Positions 1-11,374 of a DNA stretch of 40,061 bases are shown one piece after another. Position numbers and translations under genes: made by a program. Within the stretch, counting starts at the first letter, position 1. Each line of letters starts with the position of its first letter. Where the stretch lies: positions 2,367 through 42,427 of the forward strand of contig PLYM01000187.1 of NCBI GenBank assembly GCA_003153375.1, given 5' to 3'. This DNA is from Planctomycetaceae bacterium (GTDB lineage: Bacteria > Planctomycetota > Planctomycetia > Pirellulales > PALSA-1355). Below the pieces are notes generated by a model, which saw nothing but the letters and a program-made list of their open reading frames with translations, ran no database searches and was not told the DNA's origin.

Positions 1-987
1 ATCCTGCCGCGCAGCGAGCAGATTCCCGGCGAGACGCACCATCCGAACGAACGCGTCCGCTCCACGGTCTTCGAGGTCCGCAAAGCCGGCAGCCGGGTCA
101 AGGTGATCCTCAGCCGCACCCGCAAGCAGTTGGTGCAGCGCCTGTTCGAGCAGGAGATTCCCGAAATCGCCGACGGCGTGATCGAAATTCGCGCCATCGC
201 CCGCGAGCCCGGCTATCGCAGCAAAGTGGCCGTGAGCAGCTCGGACCAGCGGGTCGATTGCGTCGGTGCCTGCGTGGGCGTGCGCGGCAACCGCATCAAG
301 AACATCGTCGACGAGTTGGCCGGCGAGCGCATCGACATCGTGCGCTGGAGCGACGACCTGCAAGTGCTGATTCCCAACGCCCTGCAGCCGGCCGAAGTCG
401 AGGAAGTCATTCTCTGCCAGATGCTCGGCCGTGCGATCGTGCTGGTGCGCGAGGATCAGCTTTCGCTGGCCATCGGCCGCCGCGGTCAGAATGTGCGCCT
501 GGCCAGCAAGTTGTGCGTGTGGGACATCGAGATCATGACCCGCGAAGAGCTCGACGAGTCGATCGAGCGGGCCGTGGTCGGGTTCTCGGCGCTCGAAGGC
601 GTGGACGAAGGACTGAGCGAGAAGTTGGTGGGCGAGGGCTTTTTGTCCTACGACGATCTGAGCGTGATCGAGCCCGACGCGTTGATGGAGATGGGCAGCT
701 TGAACGAAGAGCAAGCCACGGCGATCGTCGAGCAGGCCGACGTGCGGGCCAAGGAAGCCGAACAGGCCGCCGCGCTGGAGCGCCGCCGGCAGCGTGAGCA
801 GGATCGTATCGACGCGGCCACGGCTGCCGCCGAAGCGGCGGAAGCCGCCGAGCGACAAGCCCACGAACAAGATCCCACGGCCGCGCCGACACACGATGGC
901 GAGACGGCCGGCGACGGCGAGTCGGCCAACGGCGGCGCGCCGCGGGAAGAGACGGCCGAGTCGCCCCCGGCCGCCAGTGAAGGTTGA
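1..987 (+). CDS. nusA: Transcription termination/antitermination factor NusA (5' end outside window)
   Basis: The reading frame is open from base 1, so the gene starts upstream; 328 C-terminal residues are visible. NusA binds RNA polymerase and nascent RNA and controls pausing, termination and antitermination. The visible part starts at the end of the S1 domain, followed by two KH domains: the first has [15 protein letters not shown] (about window residue 85) and the second has [16 protein letters not shown] (about 155). A helix-hairpin-helix segment follows ([15 protein letters not shown]). The last 100 or so residues are an Ala/Glu/Arg-rich, probably coiled-coil segment running into a Gly/Glu-rich disordered tail. 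It is followed by infB and rbfA, the conserved bacterial nusA-infB-rbfA order. The identification is secure; only the N-terminal domain cannot be checked. Confidence 0.96.
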
Positions 988-1066
988 GCGCTAACAGGGA
1001 GAACATCGTTTATGAATTAAGGTATTTCACGTCTTTCGCGTGCATCGTGCCCGGAAGACAAACGCG

Positions 1067-1074
1067 AGGGAGGG
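1067..1074 (+). promoter_or_regulatory. Strong Shine-Dalgarno site that sets the infB start
   Basis: AGGGAGGG lies 7 nt before the TTG at 1082. It decides in favour of the TTG over the upstream ATG at 1040, which would add 14 residues foreign to the IF-2 family. Confidence 0.8.
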
Positions 1075-1081
1075 CTGCAAG

Positions 1082-3739
1082 TTGCCCGTTCGTATCTACT
1101 CACTGGCTAAAGAACTCAAACTCGACAGCAAGATCCTGGTCGACATCTGCACCAACGCAGGCGTGACTGGCAAGGGCTCGGCATTGGCCAGCCTGACGGA
1201 TGAAGAGGTCGAGCGAGTGAAGGCCTATCTCAGCGGCGGTTCCGGGGCCAAAGCCCCCGTGGTTCGTGCTGCGCGCCCCGGTGGCACCACCACGACGATC
1301 GAGCCCCCCGCCGATCCGGGCGTCGTGCGACGCGAAGACTACATCGCACCCACTGGCACCGTCACCGATAAGATGCCGGTGCTCGATGATCGAAACAAAA
1401 GAAAGAAGCCGACCAACGGCGATGCCGGGGGCAAGCCCCCCGTCACCCGCTCGGGCTCGACTCCCAAGCTGGCCCCCCTGCCCAGCGTCTCGCAGCCGAC
1501 GGCCACGCCCGTCGCGCCGGAACTGGCGCCGCAGAAGCCAGACTTGCGGTTGCCGATGGATGTCATCAAGGCGGCCAGTCGCAGCGGCGGCACGAAGCCG
1601 CTAATCGACCATGTGCGCAAACAACAGGGCAAACGCCACGGTGGCGACGAGGTGCAGCCCGAGGGCGCGCCCGCCAAGCCGGCATCCCCGCGCGACCGTC
1701 CGTCGCGACCCAAAGAGATGATCAGCGGCGCTGCCCCGGTGACGCCCGCGGCCCGCGGACGCCGCGGCACGCCCGGCAAGGCTCCGGGCACTGAAGATCC
1801 GGCCTTGCTCGGCGGTCGCGAACAGCGCCAACTGAGCCGCCGCCGTACCGGCGCCGAAGTGCGCCCCCGAGGTGAAGAAGAGGAGACTCCCGCGCCGCGC
1901 CGCCGTGGCGGTCAGCGCGTCATCCGGCGCACCGGCTCGAACACGGCCGCCCCGCGCAAGAGCAAAGTCACGCTCGAGCTGCCCTGCACTGTCCGCAGCT
2001 TCTCCGAGGCGATCGGCATCTCCGCCTCCCAGGTGCTGCGCCAGATGCTGACGCTGGGCACGCCGGGCACCAACATCAACATCAACTCCGAAATCGATCC
2101 CGACACGGCTGAATTGCTGGCCGTGGGCTTGGGGGTCGAAATCGATTTCACCAAGCAGGTGGATCTGGCCGAACAGACCGTCACCGAACTGCGCGACGCC
2201 CCGGACGATCCGGCGTTGCTCGAAACCCGTCCGCCGGTGATCACCTTCTTGGGCCACGTCGACCATGGCAAGACGTCGCTGTTGGATCGGATCATCGGCA
2301 CCGACGTGGTCAGCGGCGAAAGCGGCGGCATCACGCAACACATTCGGGCCTATCAGATCGAGAAGGACGGACGCAAGATTTCGTTCGTCGACACCCCCGG
2401 CCACGAGGCCTTCACCGAGATGCGGGCCCGTGGCGCGAACGTCACCGACATCGCCGTGCTGGTCGTGGCCGCCGACGACGGCATCATGCCGCAAACCGAA
2501 GAGGCCATCAGCCACGCCAAGGCCGCCGGCGTGCCGATCGTCGTGGCACTCAACAAGATCGATCTGCCCGGCATCGACGTCGATCGAATCTATCAGCAGC
2601 TGGCCGCCAACGAGCTGTTGCCGACCGAGTGGGGCGGCGACACCGAAGTGGTCAAGACCAGTGCCACCGTGGGCACGGGCATGGACGACCTGCTGGAAAC
2701 GCTGCTCACGTTGGCCGAATTGCGCGACTATCGGGCCAACCCCCAACGGGCAGCCTCGGGCACGTGCCTCGAGGCGTCGTTGCACGAGGGCCGCGGTGTG
2801 GTGGCCAAGGTGATCGTGCAAAACGGCACGCTGCGCGTCGGCGACGCCGTGGTCTGCGGCGGGGCTTATGGCCGCGTGAAAGCGATGTACGACACGCTCG
2901 ACATCCACCTGCACCATCGCGAGGCCGGGCCTTCGATGCCGGTCAACCTCACCGGGTTGAACATCGCTCCGGCCGCCGGCGAACATTTCTACGTGCTCGA
3001 CGACATCGCCAAGGCCCGCCAGATTGCCGAGCTGCGCGAGGGCAAGAGCCGCCGCGCGGCCCTGGGCGGCGCGCCCACGCACGTCACGCTGGAAAACCTG
3101 TTCGATCGCCTGGGCCAGAAAGAGGCCCAGACGCTCAACATCATTTTGCGGGCCGACGTGCGCGGCTCGATCGAGGCGATCCAGAAAGAGCTCACCAAGC
3201 TCGTACACCCGGAGGTCAAGATCAAGGTTTTGCAGGCCACGGTGGGCGGCATCACCGAGGCCGACGTACACCTGGCCGACGCCTCGGACGCGATCATCAT
3301 CGGCTTCAACGTCGTGCCCGACGAAAACGCCCGCACGCTGGCCGAGGCCCGCGGCGTGCAGATTCGCCGCTACGAGATCATCTACAAGTTGACGGCCGAC
3401 TTGAAGGCCGCCTTGGAAGGCATGCTCGAGCCGGAGAAGCGCGACATCGAGCTGGGTCGGGCCATCGTGCAGCGAACGTTCACGATCAGCCGCGTCGGCA
3501 CGATCGCCGGCTGCCGCGTGATCTCGGGCGTCGTGCAGCGCAACTCCCGCGTCCGCGTGATTCGCGACAATCGAATCATCGGCGACTATGCGTTGGATTC
3601 GTTGAAGCGAGAAAAGGACGACGCCCGCGAAGTGCGCGAGGGGCTCGAGTGCGGTATCAAGCTGGGCGGTTTCAACGACTTGAAGGAAGGTGACACGCTC
3701 GAGGCCTACAAGGTCGAGGAGTTTGCACGCACGTTCTGA
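1082..3739 (+). CDS. infB: Translation initiation factor IF-2
   Basis: This is an 885-aa GTPase that places initiator tRNA on the 30S subunit and promotes subunit joining. I chose the TTG at 1082 over an in-frame ATG at 1040: it gives the usual family N-terminus ([16 protein letters not shown]) and has AGGGAGGG at 1067-1074 with a 7-nt spacer. An IF2-N domain (residues 1-50) is followed by a long low-complexity Pro/Arg/Lys linker. The G domain has GHVDHGKTS (about 391), DTPGHEAF and NKID; the G2-type segment is SGGITQHI. Domains II, III and C2 follow, with [14 protein letters not shown] near the C-terminus. The 95-bp gap after nusA holds an AT-rich patch but no convincing promoter, so infB is probably read from nusA. 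Confidence 0.97.
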
Positions 3740-3807
3740 GTTGGTAACGGCGGTCTCTTGGGGATCGTGCGATCGAAATGGCGTGCCTTGGACAAATCGA
3801 TAAACCT

Positions 3808-4209
3808 ATGACCTCGCGACGTACCCAGAAAGCCGCTGAAGCCATCCGCGAGGTCGTCGCCATGGCGATCCTGACCGACCTGAAGGATCCGCGGATCAGC
3901 GACGTGACGGTCACCTTTGTCGAGGTTTCGCCCGACATGCGGCAGGCCAAGGTGCACGTTTCGGTGATGGGCGACGAGACCAAACAGAATCTTAGCTTAC
4001 GGGGATTGCAGAATTCCGCGGGTTTTCTGCAATCCAAGGTGGCCAAGCGAATTGACACCCGCTACACGCCGCGATTGACGTTCGTGCTAGACTTAGGGGT
4101 TAAGCATTCGATCGAAATCAGCCGGATTTTGCAGTCTGTGCTGCCCGCCGAACCGGCAGCCGAGGATGACGAGCCCGCTGAGCACGAGGATTCGGATACC
4201 TCGACCTAG
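3808..4209 (+). CDS. rbfA: 30S ribosome-binding factor RbfA
   Basis: RbfA is a small KH-fold protein that binds free 30S subunits and is needed for maturation of the 16S rRNA 5' end. The family core is clear: SRRTQKAAEAIREVV near the N-terminus, LKDPRISDVTVTFVEVSPD in the centre, then VSVMGDE and RYTPRLTFVLD. The start is uncertain. The ATG at 3808 begins three residues before the conserved RRTQK block and is preferred; an in-frame ATG at 3778 would add ten non-family residues, though it has a weak GGGGA upstream. The C-terminus is an acidic tail. It lies 68 bp after infB in the same operon. Confidence 0.93.
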   Translation: MTSRRTQKAAEAIREVVAMAILTDLKDPRISDVTVTFVEVSPDMRQAKVHVSVMGDETKQNLSLRGLQNSAGFLQSKVAKRIDTRYTPRLTFVLDLGVKHSIEISRILQSVLPAEPAAEDDEPAEHEDSDTST

Positions 4210-4296: not shown

Positions 4297-5202
4297 ATGA
4301 CAACATCCAATCGCGCGGCATTGCTCAACAAGACCCACAAGCACCTGAAGCGGACGTATAAACACACTCCGCTCAAGGGCGACCAGCCGTTGCTCGAGTC
4401 GCTGTTGTTTGCTTGCGTCCTGGAAAATGCTCGCCACGACACGGCCCAACAGGCCTTCACCAAAGTTCAGGCCGCGTTTTTCGATTGGAACGAAATCCGC
4501 GTGAGCACGGTCAAGGAACTGTCGGAGGTGATGGACAACCTGCCGGATGCGACCGGCGCCGGCACGCGATTGAAGGGCGTGTTGCAAAGCGTCTTCGAGT
4601 CGGACTACTCGTTCGACTTGGAACACCTCAAGAAACAGAACATCGGGGTCGCGGTCAAGCGACTGCAAAAACTGTCCGGCTCGACCCCGTTCACCGTGGC
4701 CTATGCCACGCAAACCGCGCTGGGTGGCCACTCGATTCCGGTCGACAAGGGAACGCTCGGCGCTCTGTACGTGTTGGGCGTGATCAGCGAGTCCGAGGCC
4801 GCCGAAGGCCAGGTGCCCGGCATGGAGCGCGCCATTCCCAAGAGCAAGGGGCAGGAATTCGGCGCTCTGGTACACGAGTTGGGCGCCGACTTTTTCAGCA
4901 ATCCGTTCTCGCCCTCGCTGCGCGAACAGTTGCTGGCCATCGCCTCCGACGCCCGTGAGCGTTTTCCGAAGCGGGCCTCGAAGAAGCCGGTCGAGGCCCC
5001 TGCCCCGCCACCGACCAAAGCCGTGGCTGTCGACAGCAAGAAGAAGGGCAAGGAGCCTGCCGCGGCCGCGAAAAAGCCCGCCAAGACCGCCGAAAAGCAC
5101 GTCGTGCGCAATGCCAAGGCCGCCGCGCACCCCAAGAAAAAGGCCGGTCCCGCCGGCAAGAAAACCGCCGCCAAGACCCTGACGAAACGCAAGCCTCGCT
5201 AG
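4297..5202 (+). CDS. Degenerate endonuclease III-like (HhH-GPD fold) protein with Lys/Ala-rich histone-like tail
   Basis: 301 aa. Residues of about 25-225 follow the layout of endonuclease III/HhH-GPD DNA glycosylases. The stretch at about 125-160 (LSGSTPFTVAYATQTALGG, then IPVDKGTLGALYVLGV) aligns with the family's LPGVGRKTA...VDTHVHRV...LG. The catalytic-type Asp (PVD) is kept. The hairpin GVGxK is replaced by GSTPF, so the catalytic Lys is absent, and none of the four Fe-S cysteines of EndoIII is present. Residues of about 230-301 are a Lys/Ala/Pro tail (KKPAKTAEKH, AAKTLTKRKPR) resembling histone H1-like tails, likely to bind nucleic acid. It lies 87 bp after rbfA and may share that operon. 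A structural DNA-binding role is an inference; base-excision activity seems unlikely. Confidence 0.72.
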   Translation: MTTSNRAALLNKTHKHLKRTYKHTPLKGDQPLLESLLFACVLENARHDTAQQAFTKVQAAFFDWNEIRVSTVKELSEVMDNLPDATGAGTRLKGVLQSVFESDYSFDLEHLKKQNIGVAVKRLQKLSGSTPFTVAYATQTALGGHSIPVDKGTLGALYVLGVISESEAAEGQVPGMERAIPKSKGQEFGALVHELGADFFSNPFSPSLREQLLAIASDARERFPKRASKKPVEAPAPPPTKAVAVDSKKKGKEPAAAAKKPAKTAEKHVVRNAKAAAHPKKKAGPAGKKTAAKTLTKRKPR

Positions 5203-5274: not shown

Positions 5275-5304
5275 CTGACCGTTGCTGGTGTCGGCGGGTA
5301 TAAT
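5275..5304 (+). promoter_or_regulatory. Sigma70-type promoter for the TPR protein gene
   Basis: CTGACC (5275-5280), an 18-bp spacer, then a perfect TATAAT (5299-5304). Transcription would begin near 5311, 18 nt before the preferred ATG at 5329. This argues against the longer in-frame ATG at 5239, which lies upstream of the promoter. Confidence 0.65.
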
Positions 5305-5328: not shown

Positions 5329-7581
5329 ATGCATCCGACGTGGAAAATATGGCTTTTGCTCGCTGCCGGGCCCCTGGTCTGGGCGGGCCGCGTCACGGCG
5401 GATGAACCCCAGCCCGCGAAGGCCCAGCCGGCGGCAGCGGAGACCCAGCCCCCGGCAAAGGGGCAAAGCGTCGAACTCGACGATCCCGTTGAGCTCCTCG
5501 TGCCACAGCGGGCCCGCAGCGGCCGCGAAAACGATCGCGTGCAGGCCCTGGCCCTGTTTGCCGCCGGCCGCGTGGCCGAGCAGAAGCAAAACCTGCCCCG
5601 CGCTCTGCGCTCGTACGAGCGGGCTTACCGGCTCGATCCCGCCGCGGTCGCCGCTCTGCGCGAGATCGTGCCTTTGGCGTTTAATCTCGATCGCCAGGCC
5701 GAGGCCGTGCGCTATGCACTGATCATGGCCGAGCACGACCCGACCGATCCGATGCTGTTGCGCCGCCTGGCCATCCATCTGACCGAGGAAGGCGACGGCG
5801 AGCGTGCTTTGAAGCTCTATGAACGGGCCGAGGCCCTGCACCAGCAGGCCAAGGACAAGCCGTCGGCCAGCCTGGTGCTGTTGGCGCTGGAAATGGGCCG
5901 GCTGTATTTCGTCGACAAGCAGTTCGACCAGGCCGCCCGTCATTTTCGCGAGGTGATCAAAGCCCTCGACGAACCGAAAGAGCACGGGCTCGACCCAACG
6001 ATGCAAAAGGCCCTGATCAACAACGGCGAGTTGACCTATCAATTGTTTGCCGAAGCGTTTCTCGAGGCCGACAAGCCCGACGAGGCCTTGGCCGCCTTCG
6101 AAAAGGCCAACCGGTATAAGCCCGACGAGACGTTGTTCGCCTACCACGAAGCTCGCGTACTGGCGCGGAAAAAGCAGGCGGCCAACGCGATGGCGAAGCT
6201 CGACCAATATTTCGCCGGTCACGGCTCGAGCCAGGGCACGGCCCCCTATCAGTTGCTCTCCGAATGTCTCGAAGCGCAGGCCCACCGCGATCAACTGCTC
6301 GACCGGCTGGAAAAATTGCGCGCCGCCGATGCCGAGAACGTGCCGCTGGCCTATTTTCTGGCCCAGCAATATCGACAGGCGAACCAATTCGATAAGGCCG
6401 AACCGATCTATCAGAAGCTGGTCGAGAATAAGACACGGCCTCCGGTCGAGGCGTATCAGGGACTGGTCGAAATCTATCGCCAAAGGAAGGATGCGGCCCG
6501 ACTGCTGGCGACCTTGGCCGAGACCGTGGGCCGCGGCGGCACGCTGGAGCCCTTGGGCGACAGCGCCAAGGCACTGGTCGAGGATGCCGACGTGTGCCGA
6601 GCCGTTGTCGAAGAGGCGCGGAAGAATCCCTTGGCCGCCGGCGACAAGAACGCGTTCGGCGCCAATCTGGCAGCCGCGCTGCTGGCGGTGGAGCTAGAGG
6701 ACCTGCCCACGGCCGAGGCGCTGTTCGACGCGGCGATCAAGGCCGATCCGAGCAAGGCCTCGGAAGTGCTGCTGACCTGGGGCTTGGAGTTGTTTCTGGC
6801 CAACCAGTTTGGCGAAGCCGTCAAGGTGTTCCAGCGGGCCTTGGATGAAAAGGCCAACGGCGATAATCCGGCCATCTATTTCTACCTGGCCGGCGCGCTC
6901 GAGATGAACAGCCGCACCGACGAGGCGATCGCCGCCGCCCGCAAAGGCGCCGATTTGAAGAAGGACTCGCCCCGCTTTGCCAGCCGCGTGGCCTGGATCG
7001 AATATCACGCCAAACGTTACGAGGCGGCCCGCAAGAGTTATGCCGAGCTGATCAGCCGCTTCGACTCGCAGTACGACTCACCCGAAGCCCGCGAAGTGGT
7101 ACACGAAGCCCGGCTGGTGCTCTCGAATATTTCGGTGCAGGAAGGCAAGATGAAGGAGTCCGAGGAATGGGTCGAGCAGGTGCTCGATGAGTTTCCCGAG
7201 GACGCCGGCGCGCTCAACGACTTGGGTTACTTGTGGGCCGACGCGGGCAAGCACCTGGATCGGGCCTTGGCCATGATCCAATTTGCCGTGGCGGCCGAGC
7301 CGAAGAACATGGCCTATCGCGATAGCCTGGGCTGGGTCCTCTTCCGGCTGGGACGCTTTCCCGAGGCGCTGGTCGAATTGAAATCCGCCGCGGCCGTCGA
7401 CGAGCCCGACGGCGTGATCCTCGATCACCTGGCCGAGGCCCAACTGGCCACTGGCGATCAGACGGCAGCGATCGAGAATTGGAACCGGGCAGCCGCGGCG
7501 TTCGAGAAGAGCGACACCACGAAGGTCGCGCTGACGCGCGAAAAAATCACGCGAGCCCAAAACGCGGCGGCCAAGAAATAG
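5329..7581 (+). CDS. Exported tetratricopeptide-repeat protein
   Basis: 750 aa. The ATG at 5329 gives an Sec signal peptide (MHPTWKIWLLLAAGPLVWAG, with likely cleavage after VTA at about residue 24); starting at 5239 would bury it and lies before the promoter. The mature protein begins with a Pro/Ala/Gln-rich stretch and then consists almost wholly of TPR-type helical pairs, for example ALRSYERAYRLDPAAVAAL, ALKLYERAEALH, DEALAAFEKANRYKPDE and, near the end, YLWADAGKHLDRALAMIQFA with YRDSLGWVLFRLGRFPEALV. TPR solenoids are protein-protein scaffolds; a periplasmic or outer-membrane role is inferred from the signal. No enzymatic domain is seen. Its partner and process are unknown. The following YebC gene starts 80 bp downstream. 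Confidence 0.88.
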   Translation: MHPTWKIWLLLAAGPLVWAGRVTADEPQPAKAQPAAAETQPPAKGQSVELDDPVELLVPQRARSGRENDRVQALALFAAGRVAEQKQNLPRALRSYERAYRLDPAAVAALREIVPLAFNLDRQAEAVRYALIMAEHDPTDPMLLRRLAIHLTEEGDGERALKLYERAEALHQQAKDKPSASLVLLALEMGRLYFVDKQFDQAARHFREVIKALDEPKEHGLDPTMQKALINNGELTYQLFAEAFLEADKPDEALAAFEKANRYKPDETLFAYHEARVLARKKQAANAMAKLDQYFAGHGSSQGTAPYQLLSECLEAQAHRDQLLDRLEKLRAADAENVPLAYFLAQQYRQANQFDKAEPIYQKLVENKTRPPVEAYQGLVEIYRQRKDAARLLATLAETVGRGGTLEPLGDSAKALVEDADVCRAVVEEARKNPLAAGDKNAFGANLAAALLAVELEDLPTAEALFDAAIKADPSKASEVLLTWGLELFLANQFGEAVKVFQRALDEKANGDNPAIYFYLAGALEMNSRTDEAIAAARKGADLKKDSPRFASRVAWIEYHAKRYEAARKSYAELISRFDSQYDSPEAREVVHEARLVLSNISVQEGKMKESEEWVEQVLDEFPEDAGALNDLGYLWADAGKHLDRALAMIQFAVAAEPKNMAYRDSLGWVLFRLGRFPEALVELKSAAAVDEPDGVILDHLAEAQLATGDQTAAIENWNRAAAAFEKSDTTKVALTREKITRAQNAAAKK

Positions 7582-7661: not shown

Positions 7662-8411
7662 ATGGCAGGCCATTCGCACTGGGCGAACATCGCGCACAAG
7701 AAAGCCCTGATCGATAACAAGCGCGGCAAACTGTGGAGCAAATTGTCGAAGGCCATCATCGTGGCCGCCAAATCCGGCGGCGGCGACGTCGACATGAACC
7801 TCAAGCTGCGCTATGCGATCGACGCCGCCAAGGCCGTGAGCGTGCCCAAGGACAACATCATCCGCGCCATCAAGCGCGGCACCGGCGAACTGGAAGGCGG
7901 CAACCTGGACGAAGTTCTCTACGAGGGTTATGCCGCCGGCGGAGTGGCCGTGTTGTGCGAAATCCTGACCGACAACCGCAACCGCACGGCCGGCGAAATT
8001 CGCAAGATCTTCGAACTGAGCGAAGGCAAGCTCGGCGCCACCGGCTGCGTCTCCTGGATGTTCGAGCGCAAGGGGCTGTTCCTGGTGCCCGCCGAAAGGA
8101 TCGACGAGGACGCGCTGCTCGAGTTCGCTCTCGAGGCCGGCGCCGACGACGTCAAGCGCATGGACGACAAGTTCGAAATCACCTGCGACCCCTCGGTCTT
8201 CGCCGAAGTCGGCACCGCGCTCACCGCCAAGGGCATCACGCCCGACGTCAGCGAGATCACCCGCATTCCCACGTCAACCATCGACCTCGACGCCGAAACC
8301 GGCCGCAAAGTCCTCCGCCTGATGGAAAAGCTCGACGACCACGACGACGTCCAAAATGTCAGCGCGAATTTCAATATCCCGCAAGAAGCGCTGGCGGAAA
8401 TTCAAGGATAG
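7662..8411 (+). CDS. yebC: YebC/TACO1-family protein (probable translation or transcription regulator)
   Basis: 249 aa, the normal family length. The start is fixed by the invariant N-terminus MAGHSHWANIAHKKALIDNKRGK; an open frame runs further upstream to 7479 but overlaps the TPR gene and is not conserved. Family signatures include YAIDAAKAVSVPKDNIIRAI, KRGTGELEG, YEGYAAGGVAVL, LTDNRNRTAGEIR and GCVSWMFERKG. The family has been annotated as a transcriptional regulator; work on TACO1 and some bacterial members instead points to relief of ribosome stalling. It is the last plus-strand gene before a convergent junction with the cytochrome lipoprotein. Confidence 0.95.
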   Translation: MAGHSHWANIAHKKALIDNKRGKLWSKLSKAIIVAAKSGGGDVDMNLKLRYAIDAAKAVSVPKDNIIRAIKRGTGELEGGNLDEVLYEGYAAGGVAVLCEILTDNRNRTAGEIRKIFELSEGKLGATGCVSWMFERKGLFLVPAERIDEDALLEFALEAGADDVKRMDDKFEITCDPSVFAEVGTALTAKGITPDVSEITRIPTSTIDLDAETGRKVLRLMEKLDDHDDVQNVSANFNIPQEALAEIQG

Positions 8412-8471: not shown

Positions 8472-10112
8472 CTACTCCCCGCCGTGTTCAACCTTCGGCC
8501 AGTATTCTTTTTCGAATTTGCCGGGCTTGTCGAACTCGGGGCTGTTGTCGTGATCGTGGCACTTGGCGCAGACGTTGTCCCGGGCGAAGTCCACCGTGAG
8601 CCGCAGCGCCTCGCGCTCGGCGTCGCGCTTGGCGCGGTCGTCGCCCTTTTCGGCGGCGACGTGAGCGCGGCCCGGTCCGTGGCAGTTGTCGCAGGCGTTG
8701 CCGGCCAACTGCGGCGTCTTTTCCAGGCTGTCGAAACCGCTGACGTAAGGAATGAACTCGCTGGGGTTCCAGCCCGTGGCATGGCAACTAATGCACTCCG
8801 GATCGTATTGCCGGGGCGGGTCGACCTTGACCAAGGTTTCGGTGGCGTGGGCATGATCGGTCTTGTTCCAGATGCCCCAAGCCGTCGGATGGCATTCCTT
8901 ACAACTGGCCGCCGAGGCAAACTTGCCTGACAGCGGGTCGCCCTTCTGCGCTCGCGGATGCGGCACGCCCTTGGCGCCCAGCTCCTGCCAGCCGAGTTGC
9001 TGGAGTTGCGACTGATAGTTGGCCATCAGTTGCTTCATCGGCTTGGCGTCGGGATAGCGCGAATCGAGCGCCACCCGCTGAAACCGCACCGCCAACGGCT
9101 GGTCGGCATTGCGGGTCTCGAAAAATCCAGCCACGATCACGTATTGGGCCTTGTGCCCCAACTCGATCAGTCGGGCTTTGGTGCCGGCAATCTTCTCGGG
9201 CTGGGCGGCCGGAATGTCGGCGCTGCCGGCCTCGACGACCAGATCGAACTCTGGAAACTGCTTGGCCAGCGCGCGGGCCTCCTCGGTCGTGGCGTTGGCC
9301 AGCAGGATTTTGATGTCGCATTTTTTCAGCTTGCCCAGCACCGACTTGATCGCTTCGGCGGCCGGCGTGATCGTCACGTCGTTGTTGTTGACTTGTTGTT
9401 GATATTCCGAGCCCAGCACCGCGGTGACGCCCAGCTTGAGTCCCCCGGCTTCGATGATGCGAAACTTGGGGGTTAGATCCAACAGGCTGACGTTGGCCGA
9501 GATGAAGATTGAATCCTCGGGCTTCTCCCCCGCCACGGCCGCCACGACCTCGCCAGTCGACAGCCGCAGATCGGCCGGTCCGAATCCAACGGCGCCATAA
9601 TTCATCAGCTTGAGCGCTTCGGCCGCCATGTTGAATTGCAACTCGGCCTGCCGACCAAATCGGCGCACCAACCCGCCCACGTCGACGGCCGCCACCGGCC
9701 AGCCCTGGACTTCCAACTGCTTGATGAACGAGTAGCGCCGACTCAAGCCGCCTTTTTGATTCTCGATACCCGCGCAGCCGCAGGGCTCCAGATAACCATC
9801 CTGCGAGCCGCTGATCACCAGCGCCAGCTTGGGCTTGGGCCAGCCTTCGAAATACTTGCCGTTCTCGGCGATGGGGTCGAACTTCGGCTTGGCCGACTCG
9901 AGCCGACGGGCCGTCTTTTCGGTGAACGCGACCGTTTGCACGGCTGGATCGAACATGGGTTCGCCGACCGGCGTGGGGTGGCCATCAATGGCGGTGCGTT
10001 CGGCGGCAGTTTGCGAGGTCGCCGGCGAATTGTTCGAGCCACAGCCCAAGACCAGGGATGCGGCCACTGCCGTCAGCAGCCCGCCCAGCCGATTGAAAAG
10101 TCTGCCAGTCAT
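8472..10112 (-). CDS. Lipoprotein: degenerate 5'-nucleotidase/metallophosphatase-like domain fused to a tetraheme cytochrome c554-like domain
   Basis: 546 aa from the ATG at 10112. The N-terminus (MTGRLFNRLGGLLTAVAASL, then VLGC) is a lipoprotein signal with Cys24 as the lipidated residue; a start at 10130 adds six residues. Residues of about 95-370 resemble UshA-type metallophosphatases: VISGSQDGYLEPCGC, GGLSRRYSFIKQL, AVDVGGLV, NYGAVGFGPADL, ISANVSLLD. The Asp-His/Asn metal ligands of active UshA enzymes are not evident, so catalysis is doubtful. The C-terminal 150 residues hold four CxxCH heme sites (CKECH, CISCH, CDNCH, CAKCH) arranged as in cytochrome c554-like proteins, with HATGWNP and CHGPGRAH. 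It probably transfers electrons in the periplasm. It lies 95 bp after the DUF1573 gene, likely co-transcribed. Partners are unknown. Confidence 0.85.
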   Translation of the reverse strand: MTGRLFNRLGGLLTAVAASLVLGCGSNNSPATSQTAAERTAIDGHPTPVGEPMFDPAVQTVAFTEKTARRLESAKPKFDPIAENGKYFEGWPKPKLALVISGSQDGYLEPCGCAGIENQKGGLSRRYSFIKQLEVQGWPVAAVDVGGLVRRFGRQAELQFNMAAEALKLMNYGAVGFGPADLRLSTGEVVAAVAGEKPEDSIFISANVSLLDLTPKFRIIEAGGLKLGVTAVLGSEYQQQVNNNDVTITPAAEAIKSVLGKLKKCDIKILLANATTEEARALAKQFPEFDLVVEAGSADIPAAQPEKIAGTKARLIELGHKAQYVIVAGFFETRNADQPLAVRFQRVALDSRYPDAKPMKQLMANYQSQLQQLGWQELGAKGVPHPRAQKGDPLSGKFASAASCKECHPTAWGIWNKTDHAHATETLVKVDPPRQYDPECISCHATGWNPSEFIPYVSGFDSLEKTPQLAGNACDNCHGPGRAHVAAEKGDDRAKRDAEREALRLTVDFARDNVCAKCHDHDNSPEFDKPGKFEKEYWPKVEHGGE

Positions 10113-10207
10113 GTTCGGATCCATCCTCATGGTTGCAGCCTTGCGTCGTGATTTCGTTTCCGCGCCGCTTGCGGCGCCGAAAGCCAGGACCGTTGTCTCA
10201 CCTGCAT

Positions 10208-11374
10208 TTAAGGCACGGTTACGAATTGGAGATACATGCGAATTTGTTTGATGTCGGCGTGCGTTGTTTCCAGGATCACTTCGCCGTATTTGCCTTGTTC
10301 GGTTCCCAGGTGATTCGCCGGTGGCGCATCGGGCGGAATTTCAATGGTCAGGGGAATCTGCGTGACCGCTCCGCTGGACAGCTCCGACGGCTCGCCCACC
10401 GTGACCTTGACCCAGTCCGGCTCGCGCGAAACCGGCTTGATCGTGACCTCGTGACGCCCAGCGCCCCGCACCAGCAGCAGCAAGCGCCGCGTCGTACCCT
10501 CGGAAATCTTCACGTCGCCGATCGCCAGCCGGCCGGCGTCGGCATTCCAGCCGGAACCGACAAGCGAGATATCGCTGTCGATGATGCCCGCGATCGGCAC
10601 CCGGATCGTGGGGGTTTCCTCCGTCCCACTCAGCCGGATTTGGAGGCGGATTGTCTGTCGAAAGGGCCCCAAGGGCAAGCCCGGTTTGACCGTAAGTTCG
10701 ACCGAACAGCCGCTTTTTGCCTTGCGCTCGGCCAACTGTTCGGGCGAGATAGGCAAGATTTTGGCTTCGAAGAAACTGGCCGTCTCCGCTTCGGCAAACT
10801 CGTGGCTGACGACTTCCAGGGAGTCCGAGAAGAAGGCGAAAATCCGCACCTCGGCTCGCCGAGTTTCGGTGGCCGATATCTTGCTCAGGACGAGGCTCGG
10901 CGGCACGACTTCATAGCGCGTCGTCACGCGCCCGGTGATCCCCAACTCGATCCGCGGCTCGTTCAGGTCATTGGTGACGATCAAAGCCTTCTGGCGAAAG
11001 TCCGATTGGTCGCCCGGCATGTAGGCGACCGTGACGTTGGCCGACTCGCCCGGCCCCACCTCGGTCCGATCCACTTCGGCGACCGTACACCTCGAGCAGG
11101 AGGTGCCAGCCTCGCGCAAAGTCAGCGTGCCTTGGCCGGTGTTCTTGATGTGGAACACATGGCGCACCTCGATATCGCGCTCGATGGCTCCAAAATCATG
11201 GCTCCGCTGATCGATCCACAGCTTGGGCGCTGCGGCCGCGACCTGCGCCGCCGAGCCTTCAATGTCATGCGGCAACGGCGACAGCGGCGGATTGCCAAAC
11301 CGGGCCCAGGTGATGCCGGCCCCCAGCAACAGGCCCAACAGCACGCTCATGACGACGACGTAGGAAGCTTTCAT
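10208..11374 (-). CDS. DUF1573 domain protein, exported or membrane-anchored
   Basis: 388 aa. One N-terminal hydrophobic segment (VVVMSVLLGLLLGAGITWA, residues 6-24) acts as an anchor or signal. The DUF1573 domain follows: DQRSHDFGAIERDIEVRHVF, FHIKNTGQGTLTL, then TSCSRCTVAEVDR with its Cys pair and VGPGESANVTVAYMPG. This Ig-like, ASH-type fold is very common in planctomycetes and in Bacteroidetes. Two more beta-rich regions follow, including ITGRVTTRYEVVPPSLVL and VPIAGIIDSDISLVGSGW. The molecular role is unknown. It sits between the O-antigen ligase-like gene and the multiheme lipoprotein on the same strand, so an envelope or periplasmic role is inferred. Confidence 0.85.
   Translation of the reverse strand: MKASYVVVMSVLLGLLLGAGITWARFGNPPLSPLPHDIEGSAAQVAAAAPKLWIDQRSHDFGAIERDIEVRHVFHIKNTGQGTLTLREAGTSCSRCTVAEVDRTEVGPGESANVTVAYMPGDQSDFRQKALIVTNDLNEPRIELGITGRVTTRYEVVPPSLVLSKISATETRRAEVRIFAFFSDSLEVVSHEFAEAETASFFEAKILPISPEQLAERKAKSGCSVELTVKPGLPLGPFRQTIRLQIRLSGTEETPTIRVPIAGIIDSDISLVGSGWNADAGRLAIGDVKISEGTTRRLLLLVRGAGRHEVTIKPVSREPDWVKVTVGEPSELSSGAVTQIPLTIEIPPDAPPANHLGTEQGKYGEVILETTHADIKQIRMYLQFVTVP

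Follow-up and report, generated by a model that had tools for sequence, protein, structure and literature searches.

The best described relatives of the protein considered here are two endonuclease III (EndoIII) proteins of D. radiodurans. EndoIII-1 (DR2438; PDB 4unf and 8a5f; NCBIfam NF053634) resembles a family of planctomycete proteins in its fold, in a PVD motif with its Asp, and in a DW at the conserved corner described below; however, it keeps the Lys of GVGVK and has no N-E-x-R-V in the aligned stretch. It also keeps the Fe-S cluster and acts as a glycosylase, as given in one report (PMC9268735). EndoIII-3 (4uob) is the best structural match and an EndoIII without detected activity; unlike the family, it retains both the Lys and the Asp, according to the same report (PMC9268735). 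Nth proteins proper, such as the one encoded elsewhere in the same genome (L001), share the fold and the Asp with our protein but differ from the family in having the Lys and no translation-gene neighbourhood, and in L001 also the Fe-S cysteines. The plant demethylases ROS1 and DME (7yho-7yhq), which are active enzymes, make up the second set of profile hits (E 1e-10) and rank fourth in VIA-align, and share only the glycosylase domain with the family.

Two other comparisons concern features outside the core. Histone H1-like and Hc1-like bacterial proteins carry Lys/Ala-rich disordered tails; in the planctomycete family, unlike in these proteins, the tail is attached to a folded EndoIII core and neither its length nor its presence is conserved. 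RimM and other assembly factors of the rpsP or rbfA operons occupy the same genomic slot as the family, which shows no homology to them and would share with them a putative role in assembly.

An EndoIII fold in a planctomycete-wide family

The window, that is, the whole stretch of 40,061 nucleotides that was analysed (contig PLYM01000187.1 of a Planctomycetaceae bacterium), contains the gene for the EndoIII-fold protein and the features listed in Table 1. Is the reading frame genuine? An artefact beneath the antisense ORF was ruled out by conservation over the phylum and by the GC content of the codon positions, which in the core of the gene is 0.60, 0.41, and 0.80, a coding-type pattern. The antisense ORF misleads gene picking by longest ORF. 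A plasmid origin was ruled out by a plasmid search without a match, and a viral origin by a search of viral contigs that gave no relative (nine pattern hits, none confirmed). Its own genome gave one match at E<=0.001.

Table 1. Features of the window discussed in the text, in order of position
Feature	Positions	Strand	Basis and remarks
nusA, C-terminal part	103..987	+	Pfam KH_5 2.7e-28; start apparently outside the window
infB (IF2)	1040..3739	+	Pfam IF-2 5.6e-38
rbfA	3778..4209	+	Pfam RBFA 1.3e-28; ends 87 bases before the start codon at 4297
Antisense ORF of 796 aa	4093-6483	-	Covers the 4297-5202 gene; looks like a high-GC artefact
Gene for the EndoIII-fold protein with basic tail	4297..5202	+	ORF, translation; 301 aa
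Folded core, residues 1-227, EndoIII/HhH-GPD two-domain fold	4297..4977	+	AF2, VIA-align, profile
D63-W-N-E-I-R68-V69, best-conserved stretch of the family	4483..4503	+	156-row alignment
G128-S-T-P-F132, GVGRK in EndoIII; Phe for the catalytic Lys	4678..4692	+	PDB profile alignment, family alignment
Asp150, position of the EndoIII catalytic Asp, just ahead of helix 151-160	4744..4746	+	Profile alignment, AF2, family alignment
Disordered Lys/Ala/Pro tail, ending in KRKPR	4978..5199	+	pLDDT, net charge
TPR protein, start codon uncertain	5329..7581	+	Pfam TPR; promoter-like site 5275-5304
yebC (TACO1/YebC)	7674..8411	+	Pfam 2.3e-56 and 5e-29
Protein with cytochrome c554/c7-type C-terminus	8472-10130	-	Adjoins the DUF1573 protein
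DUF1573 protein	10208-11374	-

Searches with the single sequence returned nothing meaningful in Pfam and only noise in PDB, and the best NCBIfam model, the DR2438-type glycosylase NF053634, scored 15.4 bits (E 0.01) and did not reach its cut-off of 400. PF00730 matched neither the window protein nor any of 30 family members at E 0.01. A 30-row family profile searched against PDB retrieved D. radiodurans EndoIII-1 at E 8.6e-17, with the family's Pvd opposite PVD and its gltpF opposite GVGVK, the F lying at the catalytic Lys. The AF2 model, for which the input was seven sequences (the window protein and six loci, all planctomycete, from one exact-pattern scan of genome contigs), has 14 helices; in ten-residue blocks of the core the pLDDT is 67-94, mostly 85-94, and it falls below 50 at residues 228-299. 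VIA-align placed 4uob first (Z 17.1, rmsd 4.5, 222 residues aligned, 242-residue chain) and Foldseek 8a5f (E 1.1e-5), and EndoIII-1, EndoIII-3, EndoIII-DNA complexes, and ROS1 were near the top in both. A second model, of the Fe-S form found at locus L039, had a mean pLDDT of 68. The profile match and the structure comparison rule out a resemblance by chance. The protein has detectable sequence homology to the HhH-GPD/EndoIII superfamily and its two-domain, all-helical fold; it is a divergent member of this superfamily by descent and fold, yet not endonuclease III. The sequence-only reading had recognised an HhH-GPD core, and rightly so; the unrelated fold that it had named as its refutation appeared in neither AF2 nor VIA-align.

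How widespread is the family? By protein search, 200 of 294 planctomycete genomes have a match. With the family profile, 364 of 392 genomes match at E<=0.001, a figure that includes other HhH-GPD proteins, and 292 match at E<=1e-15. Even the stricter figure is mixed: L147, which is EndoIII-like and carries the Lys, scores 2e-30 with this profile. Family members made up 78 of the 80 regions first fetched. When 20 genomes with a weak match or none were re-examined, hits were found in 18: two genomes (G013 and G042) have divergent members whose C-terminal stretches are charged +43 and +47, while the remaining hits have Lys at the site and are EndoIII-like, or belong to a GIGxET-type relative. In a tree of 88 rows, made by a quick method and with 32 of its 85 inner branches unresolved, all family members group in a single clade (SH-aLRT 97) that excludes L001, L147, and L152. 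This is a phylum-wide family, present in most planctomycete genomes examined and not recognised by Pfam, and it is best explained as an offshoot, spread across the planctomycetes, of the EndoIII-1-like (DR2438-type) HhH-GPD glycosylases. A search of the literature outside subscription journals, covering planctomycete HhH-GPD proteins and DNA glycosylases, nucleoid or histone-like proteins, and RimM, gave no title on this protein among the papers listed.

Translation genes, ribosome factors, and the conserved corner

The strongest clue to function comes from the gene neighbourhood. In the window the gene stands behind nusA-infB-rbfA, as had been read from the sequence and as Pfam confirms, and a consensus scan found no promoter-like or terminator-like site on the + strand between rbfA and the gene. 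A long TPR protein lies between it and yebC, both in the window and at several related loci. YebC is an RNA-binding translation factor as reported in PMC12234827.

When marker proteins were sought by tblastn on the same strand, over about 5-6 kb of flank on either side or as far as the contig reached, and classes were assigned in the order infB/rbfA, yebC, ffh-rpsP, and prfA, with yebC up to about 4.4 kb off, the 121 counted loci (126 fetched) comprised 59 of the infB/rbfA class, 32 of yebC, 23 of ffh-rpsP, one of prfA, and six with none. Thus, the family gene lies in a translation gene cluster in 115 of 121 loci, or in 116 of 124 if three family loci dropped by the motif filter are added back. 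In L123, one of the six loci without a marker, nusA is found upstream, and a longer query used earlier also detected infB. By contrast, 22 other HhH-GPD loci from the phylum, searched on both strands over about 6 kb or as far as their contigs reached, show none of the markers; these controls were 20 fetched loci, including Nth, MutY-like, and AlkA-like loci of the same genome, together with L147 and L152. The spacing is short: the median distance to the upstream gene is 120 bases for rbfA (56 loci; at most 500 in 53) and 151 for rpsP (25 loci; at most 500 in 23). Pfam confirms S16, SRP54, Maf, and RF-1 as neighbours, and in L210 and L227 ffh, rpsP, the family gene, and yebC all occur together. 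The order ffh-rpsP-[EndoIII-fold family]-maf, with prfA further on, is repeated in several planctomycete lineages (L127, L145, L149, L154, and others). The linkage to translation genes is conserved in the family, and it is this gene context that carries the odds given to the different readings below.

RimM usually follows rpsP in bacterial gene order. RimM was found in none of 59 planctomycete genomes, either by PF01782 or by TIGR02273, whereas both models were positive in 10 of 14 control genomes, namely all the bacterial ones. The same 59 genomes have RbfA in 58 cases, TrmD in 51, and RimP in 10. Since RimM was not found while the family occupies the slot after rpsP, it is thinkable that the family substitutes for RimM, yet genomes without a family match (G049, G012, G046, G016, and G028) lack RimM too.

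The best-conserved part of the protein is not the active site of EndoIII but a corner with the motif D-x-N-E-x-R-V. In an alignment of 156 rows (116 earlier rows and 40 new ones taken without a motif filter), R68 is Arg in all 156, N65 is Asn in 153, residue 66 is acidic (E or D) in 155, D63 is Asp in 144, and V69 is Val in 142; R68, D63, N65, and V69 are four of the five most conserved of 208 columns. Because the glycosylases L147 and L152 also have Arg at position 68, this residue is partly ancestral and some of the corner is inherited, while N65-E66 mark the family. The corner is flanked by two helices, of which one begins at the first DNA-intercalating loop and the other runs up to the second; judged from this helix order and topology, it should therefore face away from the former DNA-binding loops.

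What, then, does the protein do? We favour, with a probability of about 0.5, a largely non-catalytic factor of ribosome assembly or translation that contacts RNA; RNA rather than DNA as the ligand, the ribosome as the site of action, and any mechanism of assembly are inferred parts of this proposal. An EndoIII-derived protein that no longer depends on base-excision chemistry would work, in contact with RNA, at the ribosome or in the translation machinery, most likely in the assembly of the small subunit. Its core would dock through the D-x-N-E-x-R-V corner, and the disordered Lys-rich tail, where present, could add a non-specific grip on rRNA. We are more tentative about a bolder version, in which a DNA-glycosylase fold now serves ribosome assembly, or even forms a protein that is bound to the ribosome in this phylum only; encoded just behind rpsP or rbfA, it might take over some of RimM's job by other means. 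If the favoured reading is true, protein synthesis in most of a phylum has taken over a universal repair-enzyme fold, in a protein invisible to Pfam. It would also point to a course of ribosome maturation in Planctomycetota unlike the textbook one, with RimM in none and RimP in 10 of the 59 genomes.

Several points argue against a role in translation. Gene order is an association, and the three main settings may go back to a few ancient rearrangements that were then frozen. The fold is a DNA-binding one, and the corner is inherited in part. Moreover, lineages without the family manage without it: for example, six of six f45 genomes tested have other HhH proteins only.

The C-terminal tail and a possible role on DNA

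The sequence-only reading had also described a Lys/Ala tail and, taking it together with a dead active site, had proposed a structural or damage-sensing DNA protein. The tail itself is as described: it is disordered in the model, and the last 70 residues have a net charge of +17, as compared with +6 at most in 25 other ORFs of the window. Of 77 family members, 41 have a last-70 charge of at least +15. The same is true of 16 of 425 control ORFs from these loci, which were chosen by length and some of which are not genes. In the 16-row clade of the window protein, 14 of the 15 rows whose end is included have a terminal [KR][KR]KP[KR].

A nucleoid or damage-sensing protein, with a dead glycosylase core that still binds DNA and an H1-like tail as tether, would accord with these charges and with the DNA-binding fold. 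There is also a precedent: DrEndoIII3 is an EndoIII that binds damaged DNA with high affinity and in which no activity was detected (PMC9268735). In addition, PMC3440768 describes bead-like particles without an identity on DNA filaments of Gemmata.

This reading nevertheless fits the data less well than a role in translation, and we consider it rather unlikely. The gene setting speaks against it, with translation clusters at 115 of 121 family loci and at none of the 22 controls. The tail is highly variable: C-terminal extensions range from 7 to more than 300 aa, several lineages are almost tail-less, and the basic tail has changed at least 20 times on the tree. Positions of DNA contact are eroded, both at the Gln41-equivalent, for which the 156 rows show no preferred residue, and at the Gly pair of the HhH hairpin. 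The core (residues 1-195) is roughly neutral, with a median net charge of -2 in 62 rows without the Fe-S cysteines and +3 in 21 with them. A link to the condensed nucleoid had been suggested as well, and it does not fit the only two loci named Gemmatales, the order of the species whose nucleoid prompted the idea; L039 has an extension of just 36 aa with 19% K+R and L040 one of 41 aa with 15%. Both end in KKPR. With two loci this argument is weak. If the protein should act on DNA after all, it would still be a concrete candidate for the planctomycete DNA-bound proteins that remain unidentified.

A polycationic disordered segment is thus present in the window protein and not conserved across the family, where the tail is common rather than defining. 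Of the two traits to be checked in homologues, the loss of the Lys is conserved across the sampled phylum and the tail is not. Does the tail replace the Fe-S cluster? Such a rule was ruled out, as tails occur with and without the cluster: an extension charge of at least +10, counting the Fe-S loop as part of the extension, is found in 12 of 21 rows with Fe-S and in 46 of 62 without.

The active site and the question of catalysis

The residues of the active site are as first read from the sequence. PVD is kept, with Asp150 present; GVGxK has become GSTPF (residues 128-132), with Phe132 at the position of the catalytic Lys; and the Fe-S cysteines are missing, Cys40 being the sole Cys. The EndoIII of the same genome (L001) has GVGRK where the window protein has GSTPF, and its Lys, Asp, and Fe-S cysteines are all present. 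Lys and Cys at shifted positions, the other refutation named in advance, were not found in the window protein; several lineages do retain the Fe-S cysteines (21 of 83 family rows have them and 62 do not).

Among the 156 rows the Lys site is occupied by F in 57, Y in 34, G in 14, W in 10, and others in the rest (F/Y/W in 101), and by Lys in a single one, L233, outside a GVGxK setting. In nine of nine EndoIII rows, seven of which are without the N-terminal half in the alignment, the Lys is present and, like the Asp, belongs to the invariant positions. Position 150 is Asp in 99 of the 156 rows and otherwise most often T (13), E (9), G (8), S (7), or N (6), so that the 53 rows with another letter have T, G, S, or N in 34 and Glu in nine. 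Because the helix starts at 151 in the model and T, G, S, and N are common, position 150 may be a helix N-cap more than a catalytic carboxylate. In the ranking of 208 columns by conservation, Asp150 is 27th and the Lys site 64th. The HhH hairpin LPGxGxxTA is replaced by LSGSTPFTVA in the window protein, and in the family Gly is found at position 128 in 49 of 116 rows and at 130 in five. On the 88-row tree, the Fe-S state has changed at least seven times and Asp150 at least 11 times.

Monofunctional relatives such as MutY also have no catalytic Lys and can be active. For this reason, and because Asp150 is retained, the loss of the Lys is not by itself a loss of catalysis in the window protein. 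The earlier claim that catalysis is lost therefore stands only in part: the Lys is gone across the phylum as sampled, which does not suffice in a protein with Asp150. The case for a non-enzyme rests on the family, where Asp150 is inconstant and the HhH Gly pair is eroded. Catalysis looks dispensable in the family, since the Lys, Asp150, and the Fe-S state have all changed while D-x-N-E-x-R-V was kept, and the loss was stepwise.

Could the protein instead be a working monofunctional DNA glycosylase, with Phe or Tyr in place of the Lys, Asp150 excising the base, and the tail aiding DNA scanning? Asp150 is retained in 24 of 27 rows of the larger clade of the window protein. The same holds for 30 of 30 loci of f95, another taxonomic family of the same class, with matches in 44 genomes and 30 loci fetched, one of them the same gene as L093; the f95 loci have the Fe-S cysteines throughout, F or Y at the Lys site, and C-termini of 28-266 aa past the Fe-S loop with net charges of +4 to +21. 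Such retention exceeds the need of a pure non-enzyme and counts against a role in translation. Furthermore, DrEndoIII1, the nearest solved relative by sequence, is mostly monofunctional according to PMC9268735. On the other hand, the changes of Asp150 are mostly to non-acidic residues, the GxG of the hairpin is mostly lost, the intercalating-loop residue is unconserved, and the genome encodes an EndoIII with all catalytic residues elsewhere. A glycosylase of this kind is accordingly improbable, somewhat more so than a protein of the nucleoid or of damage sensing.

Quite improbable is a relic with a structural or redundant function only, carried along with an essential operon: the neighbours are usually essential genes and both active site and tail vary, but the hits that the profile has at E<=1e-15 in 292 of 392 genomes (some of them other glycosylases), the all but invariant corner, and persistence in three separate gene settings point to selection.

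Two other HhH proteins of the phylum are of note at the Lys site. L152 (genome G137) is a separate, long HhH-GPD glycosylase with Tyr at this position, the Fe-S cysteines, and a long C-terminal extension. A GIGxET-type protein (L185, L187-L189, L191-L198, and L200-L202), which has Glu there and lacks an Fe-S motif, occurs in genomes without a family match.
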